A DNA stretch of 64,000 bases from positions 3,906,001-3,970,000 of the forward strand of contig NZ_CP116942.1 in NCBI RefSeq assembly GCF_028532485.1. The letters are read 5' to 3'. Source of the stretch: Iamia majanohamensis. GTDB lineage: Bacteria > Actinomycetota > Acidimicrobiia > Acidimicrobiales > Iamiaceae. The notes beneath the pieces were generated by a model. That model saw nothing but the letters and a program-made list of their open reading frames with translations, was not told the origin of the DNA and searched no databases. The position numbers and the translations under genes were made by a program. How positions within the stretch are numbered: position 1 is the first letter of the stretch; the number at the start of each line of letters is the position of its first letter. This document shows, piece after piece, positions 9,308 through 57,723 of this stretch.

Positions 9308-10585
9308 TCAGGCGGCCGGGCACCCGTCGGTCGGCGAGCCGCCCTCGGCCAGGTCGAAGAGCCAGGCCAGCCCCTGGCGGTAGGCCTCGGGGGCGGCGCC
9401 CACGTGGGAGCCCTCGGGCAGGACCCGCCGCTCCACCACCTGGCCCTCCTCGCACATGCGTCCGTAGAGGATCCCGCTCAGGGCCACGGGCACGGTCTCG
9501 TCCTGGGCGCTGTGGATGATCAGGATCGGGGCCTCGGTGACCACCTGGCCCGGGTTCTGGGCGCGCGCCAGCTCGGGCCAGGGCTCCGTCGACGGGCCGT
9601 CGGGCCGGACCAGGTCGGAGGCCGGCACCCCGGCCACGGCGGCGAAGATCTCCCGGGCACAGCCCTCGTCGACCGCGTCGAGGCGGCTCACGCCCTCGGG
9701 GGTGAGGATCTGGTCGGGCTCGGCCTCGGGGTAGGCCGCCGCGATCCCGGCCACGATCATGTAGGCGAACCCGGCCTGGGGCAGGCGGGGCGCGGCCTGG
9801 AGGATGACGTCGACCTCGGTGGCCGGGGCCCCGGCGAAGGTGCCGACCACCTCCATGTCGGGCGCCCAGTCGGGGGCGACCTCGCCCGCCCACAGCGCGC
9901 CGTGGCCACCCTGGGAGTAGCCGGCGACGGCGAGCTGGTCGCCCTGGTCGGCGCCGGGGAGCATCCCGGCCGCCAGCACCGAGTCGACCACGCTGCGGCC
10001 CTCGCTCTCGCCCACCAGGTAGGGGTGGCGGCCGGGGGTGCCGAGGCCCTCGTAGTCGGTGGAGGTCGTGATCCAGCCCCGCTCGGCCGCCGGGCCGGCC
10101 AGGGCGAGCTCCCGGCCGCCCTCGGCGCGCGACGGAGCGCACTCGTCCGCGATGCCGGTGGTGCCGTGGGCCAGGGCCAGGGTGGTGCGGCCCTCCTCCG
10201 GCGCCGGACCGGTGGGGAGCACCACCGTCCCGGTGACCACGATGGGGTCCCCGGCCAGCGACTCCGAGGTGTACATGACCCGGTAGGTGGTGGCGCCGTC
10301 GGTAAGCGAGGGGGTGATCTCCTGGTACCTGAGCAACGTGCCGTGGTCCACGTCGGGGATGGGGTCGGGGACCGCGTAGAGCTCCTCGGCCGAGCCGACC
10401 TCCTCGGGCTCGAGGGGAGCGTCGGCCTCCGTCGTCGAGGTGGGGCCGGCCGCCTCCGTGGTCGTCGTCGCGGCCTCGCCGGACCCGCCGTCGTCGCCGG
10501 AGGAGCAGGCCGCCCCCGCCACCAAGGCGACCACGGTGAGGAGGACGGCGACCAGCCGGCCGGGCCGGTGGCGGAGGCCGTTCAC
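9308..10585 (-). CDS. Secreted lipase/alpha-beta hydrolase, probable lipoprotein
   Basis: The 425-residue protein resembles the secretory lipase family (LIP type). An N-terminal signal ([20 protein letters not shown]) ends at a cysteine followed by a Gly/Ser/Thr-rich linker, so it may be a lipoprotein although the lipobox is not ideal. The nucleophile elbow is [14 protein letters not shown], and near the C-terminus [13 protein letters not shown] gives the aspartate and GSHVGA the histidine of a catalytic triad. It probably hydrolyses lipids or esters outside the cell. The GTG start (10583-10585) overlaps the hisS stop as GTGA. That makes translation coupled to hisS, an unusual pairing of a secreted enzyme with a synthetase gene. 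Confidence 0.85.
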
Positions 10586-12045
10586 GCGCCCGCCAGGATC
10601 TCGGACACGGCGCCGACCAGCTCGGACCGACCGACCGAGCGCTGCGCGGTGCGGTCGGTGCGCCACTCGTCCCGGTCGGTGATCTCCCGGGACCGCTCGG
10701 CCCCGAGGACCAGGTCCTTGAGCTGCACCTCGCCGGCGTCGAACTCCCGCTCCCCGGCGATCACGGCCACGGGGGCCCGTCGCTTGTCGGCGTAGGAGAG
10801 CTGCTTCTGCAGCTTCTGGGTGCCCATGTAGACCTCGGCCCGGATGCCGGCGGACCGCAGCTCGGCGGCCATGGCGTGGTAGTCGGCCAGCCGGTCGCGA
10901 TCCATCACGGTGACCACCACGGGGCCGTCGGCGGGGGCGTCGACCTCGGCTCGCCGGGTCCGGAGGGCGGCGAGCAGCCGGTCGACGCCGACGCTGGCCC
11001 CGCAGGCGGGCACGGCCTGGCCGGTGAAGCGCTGCACCAGGTCGTCGTAGCGACCCCCGCCGGCCACGGACCCGAACTCGCGGGGGCGGCCCTTCTCGTC
11101 GAGGGTCTCGAAGGTGAGGGCGGCCTCGAACACGGGTCCGGTGTAGTACGCCAGGCCCCGCACCACGCTGGGGTCGAAGACCACCTCGGGGCCGACGCCC
11201 ATGGCGTCGAGGGCGGCGGCGATGGCGGCCAGCTCCTCGACCCCCTCGCGCCCGGTCGGGTCGTCGCCCACCAGGTCCGCGAGCGTGTCGAGGACGGCCG
11301 TGCGGGACGGGTCCCCGGCGGCGACGAACGCCAGCACCGGCTCGGCCTGGTCGTCGCGCAGCCCGGCCCCGGCGGTGAAGTCGCCGGAGCGGTCGCGCCG
11401 GCCCTCCCCCAGCAGCTGGCGCACCCCGTCGATCCCGAGGCGGTCGAGCTTGTCGATGGCCCGCAGCACCTCGAGCTGGCGGTCCGGCTCGGTGACCCCG
11501 GCCCGGGCGAGCACCCCGTTGAGCACCTTGCGGTCGTTGACCCGGACCTCGTAGTCGCCCGGGGCGATGCCGGCCGCCTCCAGGGAGGCCCCCAGGAGGG
11601 CGCACGCCTCGGCGTCGACGGCCATCGACCCGCTCCCGACGGTGTCGAAGTCGCACTGGGTGAACTGGCGGAAGCGCCCGGGCCCGGGCTTCTCCCGGCG
11701 CCACACCGGCCCGGCCTGGTAGCGCCGGAAGGGGGTGGGGAGCTCCTGGCGGTGCTGGGCGACGTAGCGGGCGAGCGGCGCGGTGAGGTCGTAGCGCAGG
11801 GCGATCCACTGCTCGTCGTCGTCGCGCAGGGCGAACACGCCCTGGTCGGGGGCGTCCTCGTCGGGGAGGTTCTTGCCCAGGGCGTCGAGGTACTCGACCG
11901 CCGGCGTCTCCAGCGGGGCGAAGCCGTGGAGCCGGTAGGTCGCGAGCAGGGCGTCGAGCATCGCCTGGCGCTCCTCCACGTCGCCGGCGGCCACGTCGGC
12001 GAGGCCGCCGGGCAGGCGGGCCTTGGGGCGGGCGTCTGCTGCCAT
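10582..12045 (-). CDS. hisS: Histidyl-tRNA synthetase, alphaproteobacterial type
   Basis: The 487-residue enzyme charges tRNA-His. Class II features are present: [12 protein letters not shown] and the arginine-rich motif 2 ([19 protein letters not shown]), the histidine-binding stretch [13 protein letters not shown], and motif 3 ([14 protein letters not shown]). It is about 60 residues longer than the usual bacterial enzyme (near 420) and reads like the enzyme of alphaproteobacteria such as Caulobacter ([19 protein letters not shown] and [19 protein letters not shown]). This matters because the tRNA-His gene 52 bases upstream lacks the normal identity bases. Start is ATG at 12043-12045 with GAGGAGG six bases ahead. 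The lipase gene overlaps its stop by four bases. Confidence 0.93.
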
Positions 12046-12097
12046 CAGGGCCTCCTCGACGGTCGGTGGTCGGCGCGGCGCAGGACCCGGGCCCGAG

Positions 12098-12171
12098 TAC
12101 TGCCGATGGGACTCGAACCCATGACCTCCTGGTCCACAACCAGGCGCTCTAACCAACTGAGCTACGGCAGC
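12098..12171 (-). tRNA. tRNA-His (GTG) without G-1, with G1:U72 and A73
   Basis: A complete cloverleaf can be drawn: acceptor GCTGCCG (12171-12165) with CGGCAGT, D arm from GCTC, anticodon stem CCTGG/CCAGG around a loop with anticodon GTG, and T arm ATGGG-TTCGAGT-CCCAT. The base before G1 is C, position 72 is U (12099), and the discriminator is A (12098); CCA is not encoded. Nearly all bacterial tRNA-His have an extra G-1 opposite C73. The form seen here is that known from alphaproteobacteria. It sits 52 bases ahead of hisS, on the same strand. Confidence 0.93.
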
Positions 12172-56412: not shown

Positions 56413-57723
56413 TCATGCTGCGCTCCTCCTGGCGGGACGGTCCGCCGTCCCCAGTGTGGCGAGCAGGGCGGCCAGGTCCTCCAGGCTGGCCAGCGAGTGG
56501 CCGGTGACGAAGGTGTCGACGTGGGGCAGGGCCGCGGCCATGCCCCGGGCGAGGGGCTCGTAGCCGGGTGCGGCCTTCAGGGGGTTGACCCAGACGACGT
56601 GGTGGGCGACCCGGTGGAGACGGGCCATGGCCTCGGCCACCGCCTCGGGATCGCCGCGGTCCCAGCCGTCGGACAGCACCACGACCACGGCGCCCCGGGC
56701 CAGGCCCCGAGCCCCCCACCGGTCGACGAACAGGGCCAGGGCGTCGCCGAGGCGCGTGCCCCCCGACCAGTCGGCCACCTCCCCGGCCGCCCGCTCCAGG
56801 GCCAGGTCCGGGTCGCGGGTGGTGAGGGCACGGGTGATCCGGGTGAGGCGGGTGCCGAGGGTGAAGGCCTCGACCCGCCCGGCCCCGCGGGAGGCGACCG
56901 CGGCGTGGGCGAAGCGCAGCAGGGCCCGGGCGTAGGGCTCCATCGAGCCGCTGACGTCGACGAGCAGCACCAGGCGCCGGGGACGGACCGACGGGGCCCG
57001 GCGGTGCAGGACGAGGGGCTCGCCGCCGGTGGCCAGGGCGGCGGTGACCGTGGCCCCCAGGTCGAGCTCGTCGCCGCCCCGGGCCGGGCGACGACGCCGG
57101 GAGCGTCGGGTGGCCACGCCCACCCGCAGGCGGGCGATGGCCCGGTGCAGCTCGGCCCGCTCCTCGACCGAGCAGGTGCCGAGGTCGGCGTGGCGGAGCG
57201 CCTCGTGGGCGCTCTGGCGAAGGACGGCCGCGGGGTCGTCGTGCGCCTGGTCGGGGACGGCGTCGTCGTCGCCGTCGGCGGCCGCGTCGACCAGCAGCGC
57301 GGTGGGCGACGGCCGCGACGGCGCCGACCAGGTGACCGCCTCGTCCACCACGGCGGCGAAGGCGGCGTCGTAGGCCGCGATGTCCTCGGGGCGGTGCACG
57401 AGGGTCGCCCGGCCCGCCCAGTAGAGGTCGGCGCGGGTGGCGGCGCCGAGCGCGGCGACCGCCTCGGCGCAGGCGACGGCCGAGCGCACCGCCACCGCCA
57501 CGTCGTGGCGGCGCAGGGCGTGGGCCAGCGCCGCCACCAGCGCGGCCCCGACCGGGCCCCCCTGCGTACTGGGACGGGATGTGGTCGCCCCAGCCACCGC
57601 ATCCCGCGCCACCTCGCCATCACCCTCCGAACCGGGACGGGAGGTGGTCGCCCCAGGGACCCGATCCCGCGCCACTTCGGGGGTCGAGCGGCGACGCCGG
57701 GCGGGGGGCGGGTCAGGAGGCAC
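56413..57723 (-). CDS. coxE: CoxE-like von Willebrand factor A protein
   Basis: The 436-residue protein carries a VWA domain with an intact metal site: RLVLLVDVSGSMEPYARALL (DxSxS) and WSGGTRLGDALALF and VVVVLSDGWDRGDPEAVAEA. In the CO dehydrogenase clusters CoxE works with the MoxR ATPase CoxD to mature the active site. Residues 15-53 are unusual: they repeat EVARDRVPGATTSRPGSEGD and EVARDAVAGATTSRPSTQGG, because two 52-bp palindromic repeats lie in frame there. The GTG at 57721-57723 overlaps the MoxR gene by 11 bases; a later start after the repeats cannot be excluded. Confidence 0.88.
   Translation of the reverse strand: MPPDPPPARRRRSTPEVARDRVPGATTSRPGSEGDGEVARDAVAGATTSRPSTQGGPVGAALVAALAHALRRHDVAVAVRSAVACAEAVAALGAATRADLYWAGRATLVHRPEDIAAYDAAFAAVVDEAVTWSAPSRPSPTALLVDAAADGDDDAVPDQAHDDPAAVLRQSAHEALRHADLGTCSVEERAELHRAIARLRVGVATRRSRRRRPARGGDELDLGATVTAALATGGEPLVLHRRAPSVRPRRLVLLVDVSGSMEPYARALLRFAHAAVASRGAGRVEAFTLGTRLTRITRALTTRDPDLALERAAGEVADWSGGTRLGDALALFVDRWGARGLARGAVVVVLSDGWDRGDPEAVAEAMARLHRVAHHVVWVNPLKAAPGYEPLARGMAAALPHVDTFVTGHSLASLEDLAALLATLGTADRPARRSAA
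57565..57616. repeat. 52-bp palindromic repeat, copy D (inside coxE)
   Basis: The ends CGTACTGGGACGGGATG and CATCCCGCGCCACCTCG form an imperfect inverted repeat; the inner CGGGATG/CATCCCG arms are exact. The loop has TGGTCGCCCCAG, matching the core of copies A and C. It lies within the coding frame of the VWA gene and is 63 bases from copy E. Confidence 0.8.
57628..57679. repeat. 52-bp palindromic repeat, copy E (inside coxE)
   Basis: Arms begin CGAACCGGGACGGGA and end TCCCGCGCCACTTCG, with TGGTCGCCCCAG in the loop. Copies D and E share most positions and both keep the VWA reading frame because the period of 63 bases is a multiple of three. Confidence 0.8.

Follow-up and report, generated by a model that had tools for sequence, protein, structure and literature searches.

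The window analyzed here, a stretch of 64,000 nucleotides from the chromosome of Iamia majanohamensis, carries on its minus strand a gene for tRNA-His followed by hisS, the gene for histidyl-tRNA synthetase (HisRS). In sequence, enzyme and tRNA both resemble the histidine system of alphaproteobacteria, in which tRNA-His has A73, and they stand at a locus with four features.

12098..12171, minus strand: tRNA-His(GUG), called by ARAGORN at 12097-12171, its bases then read from the sequence
12046..12097, minus strand: spacer of 52 bases from A73 to the start of hisS; a GAGGAGG at 12051-12057 resembles a Shine-Dalgarno sequence
10582..12045, minus strand: hisS, encoding a HisRS of 487 residues, of the alphaproteobacterial A73 type by its motif-2 loop
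9308..10585, minus strand: secretory lipase, from a profile match (PF03583, 97.1 bits)

The tRNA has G1 at 12171, C at position -1 (12172), U72 at 12099, and A73 at 12098; its acceptor stem contains G1:U72 and C2:G71. ARAGORN and the base reading thereby agree with the original prediction, which had named C-1, G1:U72, and A73. The gene does not encode CCA, which is not odd in itself, since roughly every second tRNA gene in the genome is without it. The hisS product scores 383.1 bits against the hisS model TIGR00442 (cut-off 286.75), misses the cut-off of the HisZ model TIGR00443 (179 against 271.65 bits), and contains the PF13393 and HGTP_anticodon domains. It also contains the protein block quoted when a 487-residue, alphaproteobacterial-type product was first proposed. 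Aligned by eye, its motif-2 loop reads EKPGPGR, against EQPQSGR in the native enzyme of a congener (G212), a change of Gln to Gly; the labels of motifs 1, 2, and 3 were likewise assigned by eye, without a family search.

The spacing of 52 bases stands as first described, and GAGGAGG lies five bases before the hisS ATG. So short a spacer leaves little room for a usual promoter, and tRNA-His and hisS therefore probably share one transcript. At the other end of hisS, its stop and the GTG start of the lipase share GTGA (10582-10585), the overlap already remarked on in the prediction. The GC content of hisS (0.757) is close to that of the window (0.765), which suggests that hisS probably did not arrive very recently.

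Passages from five papers (PMC9976931, PMC3937112, PMC7590224, PMC5370408, PMC3875453) describe an alphaproteobacterial clade whose tRNA-His lacks G-1, has A73, and is recognized through G1:U72 and A73; they describe the HisRS/tRNA-His pairs of Caulobacter and Escherichia coli as orthogonal, and differ in the weight given to the anticodon. According to an excerpt of PMC3937112, Gly replaces Gln in the motif IIb loop and covaries with the tRNA; PMC5370408 notes one biochemical study in which A73 counted for little, and describes a eukaryotic origin for the alphaproteobacterial HisRS as disputed. Like the alphaproteobacterial RRCH clade (for example Caulobacter crescentus), I. majanohamensis lacks G-1 and has G1:U72, A73, and the motif IIb Gly; its HisRS is 49–62% identical to 67 alphaproteobacterial enzymes, and a congener, G211, has a hisS-hisZ-hisG operon. 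Unlike the alphaproteobacterial pair, it has an acidimicrobial host, adjacent tRNA-His and hisS, no hisZ found, a displaced native system, and a tRNA-His gene without CCA, whereas the alphaproteobacterial tRNA-His genes read encode CCA. With the canonical G-1:C73 system, seen in G212 and the readable rest of the family, it shares the anticodon, the cloverleaf, and the PF13393 and HGTP_anticodon domains, but its HisRS is 29% identical to the enzyme native to the genus, and the motif-2 loop and the tRNA differ (C-1/A73 against G-1/C73).

This is the only histidine system found in the genome, a single contig of 4.58 Mb that is 99.44% complete. A protein search with the window HisRS returned one HisRS, and a search with the native HisRS of a congener, at E values up to 1, matched only the window hisS; no hisZ was found in this genome. 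RF00005 gave 47 tRNA matches, among which ARAGORN, run on all, called one His anticodon (the weakest match was not called a tRNA). The search for a second hisS and a second, G-1/C73 tRNA-His that had been proposed as a check thus came back empty across the genome. Nor was there a homologue of Thg1 (PF04446), which could add G-1, in I. majanohamensis or its congeners G210, G211, and G212; as a control, PF04446 matched 3 of 14 other genomes. Viral carriage of the pair was looked for in a single scan of viral contigs, which showed no relative.

We consider it very probable, on comparisons of sequence and gene order, that the window encodes a foreign A73-type histidine system that is working and is the sole one, that its hisS was acquired horizontally, and that the native pair was displaced in this acidimicrobial genome. 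An essential enzyme and its tRNA would then have been exchanged for a pair with a different identity rule. Such a swap is often thought to be nearly closed, because enzyme and tRNA must change together.

Probable loss of the native pair within the genus

A search of 24 genomes of the family found the A73-type HisRS in I. majanohamensis (G000), G210 (76% identical), and G211 (73%), all of one genus. A fourth congener, G212, has a canonical HisRS (414 bits for TIGR00442), as do all five other members that were aligned (G199, G213, G216, G218, and G219); from weak, split matches the remaining members appear to be canonical too, with G203 giving no match. tRNA-His was read in 18 of the 24 genomes (all except G198, G201, G203, G204, G214, and G216): 15 have G-1/C73 and three have C-1/G1:U72/A73, and these three are exactly the genomes with the foreign enzyme. 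Relatives with G-1/C73, whose tRNA-His genes had been singled out for comparison, carry a different enzyme in each case aligned (G199, G212, G213, G218, and G219).

Across the wider class, 188 of 198 sampled genomes had some HisRS match, the best outside I. majanohamensis reaching 260 bits and 44% identity (G117). The A73 tRNA-His pattern matched five times in 395 class genomes, a draw that left out G210 and G211, and only the match in I. majanohamensis is a tRNA (ARAGORN called none in the other four); the A73 tRNA-His is not a chance pattern match. Other divergent types of HisRS are scattered in the class (L048-L057, from G117, G094, G074, G034, G172, G180, G169, G130, G014, and G190). Eight class members with such enzymes were tried for tRNA-His; six were readable, all six with G-1/C73.

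The native genes have left recognizable sites (the neighbor names relA, rarA, aspS, PfpI-like, and aldehyde dehydrogenase-like were given by eye, without a family search). G212, which keeps the native pair and is without the foreign enzyme, has the order PfpI-like gene, hisS, aspS, rarA, and its native tRNA-His lies upstream of tRNA-Lys(CTT). In I. majanohamensis rarA comes immediately after the PfpI-like gene, with 56 bases between the aligned blocks; at the second site tRNA-Lys(CTT) and the upstream gene are conserved, and the tRNA-His stretch between them is absent. Both native genes, hisS and tRNA-His, are missing from the positions where synteny would place them, in line with the prediction that the ancestral system was replaced.

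G211 holds an intermediate. It has the foreign HisRS and the A73 tRNA-His, yet a native hisS still lies between the PfpI-like gene and rarA (L141:5097-6341, equal to C1:2893096-2894340). The reading frame has stayed open and can be aligned to the HisRS of G212 over 407 codons in a single frame. Its catalytic part has been altered: motif 2 has gone from FRYEQPQSGRLRQHHQ to LVPGADGLVQRNE, a deletion of three residues, LVRGLDYYTHTTFE has become VTGGSPHAVHVAFE, and the arginine of motif 3 has disappeared. The product scores 184 against TIGR00442, under the cut-off, and its catalytic domain 47 bits against 137 in G212, whereas the anticodon-binding domain scores 48 against 45. Nonsynonymous divergence (dN) from G212 is 0.43 in the N-terminal part, compared with 0.16–0.28 for three native pairs, and 0.25 in the C-terminal domain, compared with 0.21–0.28. 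Ratios of nonsynonymous to synonymous divergence (dN/dS) are about 0.78 and about 0.47, respectively (native pairs, 0.27–0.66 and 0.33–0.88). By these comparisons constraint is relaxed in the N-terminal part, and the C-terminal part stays within the native range. Because a free pseudogene should decay evenly and the decay in G211 is uneven, the C-terminal domain looks retained, on the basis of a single gene, 97 codons of the C-terminal domain, and simple counting in a GC-rich genome; the protein is a candidate for an evicted synthetase with a new role, or for an early pseudogene.

With empty native sites in I. majanohamensis, the native pair in G212, and a decayed native hisS in G211, the genome comparisons catch the replacement of the histidine system at several stages. 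One genus thus offers a native-only species, one with the foreign pair beside a decayed native enzyme, and species in which the foreign pair is the sole one found; the sequence of events can therefore be put to the test.

Alphaproteobacterial contigs misplaced in an actinobacterial bin could imitate such a picture, and the estimated contamination of G210 (5%) and G211 (4%), together with the status of G210 as a metagenome-assembled genome (MAG), gives this explanation some footing. The window, however, lies inside a single 4.58 Mb contig, three assemblies agree, hisS matches its surroundings in GC content, and the lipase and tRNA neighborhood recurs in G211; we reject an assembly artefact as extremely improbable. 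The chromosome is actinobacterial, as predicted, and the G210 contig is identical to a public record from an Acidimicrobiales bacterium (JAAYBP010000017.1, L147).

A73-type pairs beyond the genus

A scan with two short peptide patterns, using one genome per species for 84,980 species, gave 168 relatives, the best 80 of which were analyzed. Among these 80, 67 are labeled as Alphaproteobacteria and 13 are not (Planctomycetota, 5; Actinomycetota, Acidobacteriota, Zixibacteria, and Electryoneota, 1 each; unclassified bacteria, 4). The tRNA-His genes of further carriers were sought with the pattern TTGTGR and then with a second pattern for tRNAs with C32. G1:U72, C2:G71, and A73 occur together in 24 of 26 carriers, with one further carrier having G-1/C73 and one unread. 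G stands at -1 in 3 of the 24 A73 carriers, never opposite C73, and the motif-2 Gly is present in 23 of them. Two different A73 tRNA-His genes (L318 and L323) occur in one bin, an Amaricoccus MAG (L151).

The A73 system therefore reaches outside Alphaproteobacteria, to Actinomycetota and to MAGs of three other phyla (Planctomycetota, Zixibacteria, and Electryoneota among the carriers); given this presence, it seems to spread sideways as well. Among the matches listed in a partial literature collection, titles and abstract openings contained no report of an A73-type pair in Actinomycetota or Planctomycetota. The pair as such is known from alphaproteobacteria; by sequence, what is unexpected here is its acidimicrobial host and the unusually good traces of the swap.

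Gene order differs between the two sets of loci. In 5 of the 13 non-alphaproteobacterial loci, from three lineages, the gene directly ahead of hisS is tRNA-His; this holds for 0 of the 67 alphaproteobacterial loci, with at least 300 bases of upstream DNA available in 66 of the 67 and fewer than 300 in 3 of the 13. Linked A73 tRNA-His/hisS pairs arranged as in the window occur at L148:1626-3243, L149:3859-5485, L150:3859-5485, and L218:2292-4111; L148-L150 are near-identical unclassified MAGs, and L218 is Candidatus Hatepunaea, an Electryoneota MAG. Downstream of hisS stands a hisZ homologue in 25 of the 67 alphaproteobacterial loci (with hisG as well in 23) and in 0 of the 13 others, 11 of which have 2.5 kb or more downstream.

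Proposed transfer of hisS and the origin of its tRNA

The HisRS tree has 73 rows, 27 of 100 having been dropped by hand beforehand (mostly near-duplicates, with some canonical or weak class rows). The enzymes of the genus form one clade (100/100), grouped with 43 of 44 alphaproteobacterial rows (97/92), with the alphaproteobacterial MAG L203 just outside; A73-type enzymes as a whole make a clade of 59 rows (100/99). A HisRS tree, another check attached to the prediction, thus places the genus with alphaproteobacterial rows and not with other Actinomycetota, with a root that approximately unbiased (AU) tests do not fix. Constraints joining the genus with native enzymes, with L149 with or without L218, and with L048-L052 were tested on a reduced set of 26 rows; grouping with the divergent class enzymes L048-L052 is disfavored (p 0.03). 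Tests bearing on the donor did not discriminate, with p 0.24–0.28 for the genus placed with L203, for the genus placed with Rhodobacterales, and for alphaproteobacteria alone without the genus.

Since the AU tests leave the root of the A73-type clade unfixed, the direction of transfer is taken not from that root but from the native remnants, the G211 operon, and the distribution: three species of one genus carry the A73-type HisRS, against 67 alphaproteobacterial genomes from many families. The foreign hisS of G211 heads a hisS-hisZ-hisG operon, whose HisG passes TIGR00070 and whose HisZ fits the PRK12295 models best, under their cut-offs. The A73 tRNA-His of G211 lies more than 600 kb from this hisS and adjoins the same lipase as in the window, with no hisS between them. 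In G210, tRNA-His and hisS are linked, 51 bases apart, and the next gene is an opposite-strand aldehyde dehydrogenase-like gene; because that gene takes the place of the lipase there, the coupling of lipase to hisS is local.

We propose the following course. G1:U72 and A73, and to some degree the anticodon, would serve the HisRS as recognition elements of tRNA-His in place of G-1:C73; RNase P would cut this tRNA normally, leaving no G-1, and CCA would be added later. hisS would have been acquired horizontally from a donor with an A73-type system. The most likely donor is an alphaproteobacterium, and the gene probably arrived within a hisS-hisZ-hisG operon, an arrangement suggested because G211 still has it. 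Once an A73 tRNA-His was present, the native HisRS and G-1/C73 tRNA would have become dispensable; the native tRNA-His gene would then have been lost, and native hisS would have decayed in place (G211) or been deleted (I. majanohamensis). In I. majanohamensis and G210, hisS now lies 51–52 bases behind the A73 tRNA-His, probably in one transcript.

Several observations weigh against this reading. The genus as the outermost branch of the A73-type clade (p 0.26) is not rejected by the AU tests, nor is its placement with native enzymes (p 0.25, with long outgroups). The HisRS tree joins I. majanohamensis with G210 (99/83 in the 73-row tree, 88/75 in a second run, open on 26 rows), and the marker genes tend, if not strongly, to pair G210 with G211. 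A larger marker set joins the latter two (100/99), though roughly, as it includes overlapping out-of-frame reading frames and G210 fills 13% of its columns; rarA trees of protein and DNA disagree within the genus, rpoC leaves the species order open, and HisRS constrained to G210 with G211 gives an AU p of 0.21. Among the carriers elsewhere, L208 has an A73 tRNA and Glu for the motif-2 Gly, L203 gave no tRNA-His, and L178 (an Acidobacteria MAG; L178:22-1506, L308) combines the loop EKTDVGR with a G-1/C73 tRNA-His, possibly owing to a contaminating contig in the bin. Finally, the tRNA body of I. majanohamensis is closer to some G-1/C73 tRNAs of its class (0.87 to G117, 0.86 to G190 and G094) than to any A73 tRNA outside the genus (at most 0.84; Methyloligella, 0.81).

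This last resemblance leads to an alternative in which the enzyme alone is foreign, the A73 tRNA-His being the native tRNA-His, duplicated or moved and then adapted to the imported HisRS. Ardell and Andersson reportedly proposed in 2006 that alphaproteobacteria themselves acquired their tRNA-His by such a change of the native gene. The distance between hisS and tRNA-His in G211 fits this account, as does the lack of a tRNA-His near hisS in all 67 alphaproteobacterial loci, mostly covered for 4 kb on each side. On the other side, the A73 tRNA-His locus differs from the native tRNA-His site, which is empty; C2:G71 (24 of 24) and A38 (23 of 24) are common to the A73 carriers and present in I. majanohamensis, unlike the U2:A71 and U38 or C38 of eight C73 tRNAs compared; and the tRNA body of G211 resembles that of Methyloligella most (0.86) and the native tRNA-His much less (0.74). 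The tRNA bodies thus give mixed signals that leave the origin of the A73 tRNA-His open, and we treat an import of the enzyme alone as a minority possibility.

A second alternative is that the pair came as one linked tRNA-His/hisS cassette, later separated in G211; the original prediction had the histidine identity system moving as a unit. In its favor, tRNA-His precedes hisS on one strand, at about 50–140 bases, in I. majanohamensis, G210, L148-L150, and L218. A single cassette shared by the genus, L149, and L218 was considered and dropped, since the AU test rejects these as one clade (p 1e-8; genus with L149 alone, p 0.07), and for that reason the adjacency probably arose more than once. Since G211 has its hisS in the alphaproteobacterial-like hisS-hisZ-hisG order, with the A73 tRNA-His elsewhere beside the lipase, and linkage is found at no alphaproteobacterial locus, movement as a unit is not established, and we regard import as a cassette as unlikely. 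A co-transfer of tRNA-His and HisRS into SAR11 was proposed by Wang et al. in 2007 and is doubted by the authors of PMC3937112, according to an excerpt of that paper. As told there, it shares with the cassette the idea of both partners moving together; the SAR11 case, however, lies within the alphaproteobacteria, whereas in the present case the recipient belongs to another phylum and remnants of the native system can still be seen.

A bolder extension would make linked tRNA-His/hisS pairs self-sufficient replacement units that displaced native systems independently in several phyla, with the former HisRS of G211 kept as a catalytically inactive protein based on its anticodon-binding domain. 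Such a pair could enter a foreign genome without cross-charging because it brings its own identity rule; we nevertheless consider this combination quite doubtful. By analogy with the published Caulobacter work, the window may also supply a GC-rich HisRS/tRNA pair, from an actinobacterium, that would be orthogonal to the canonical pair.

Elsewhere in the window, ARAGORN called a second tRNA-Thr(CGU) of 88 bases at 57168-57255 on the plus strand; it is absent from the RF00005 matches of the genome and is probably a false call.

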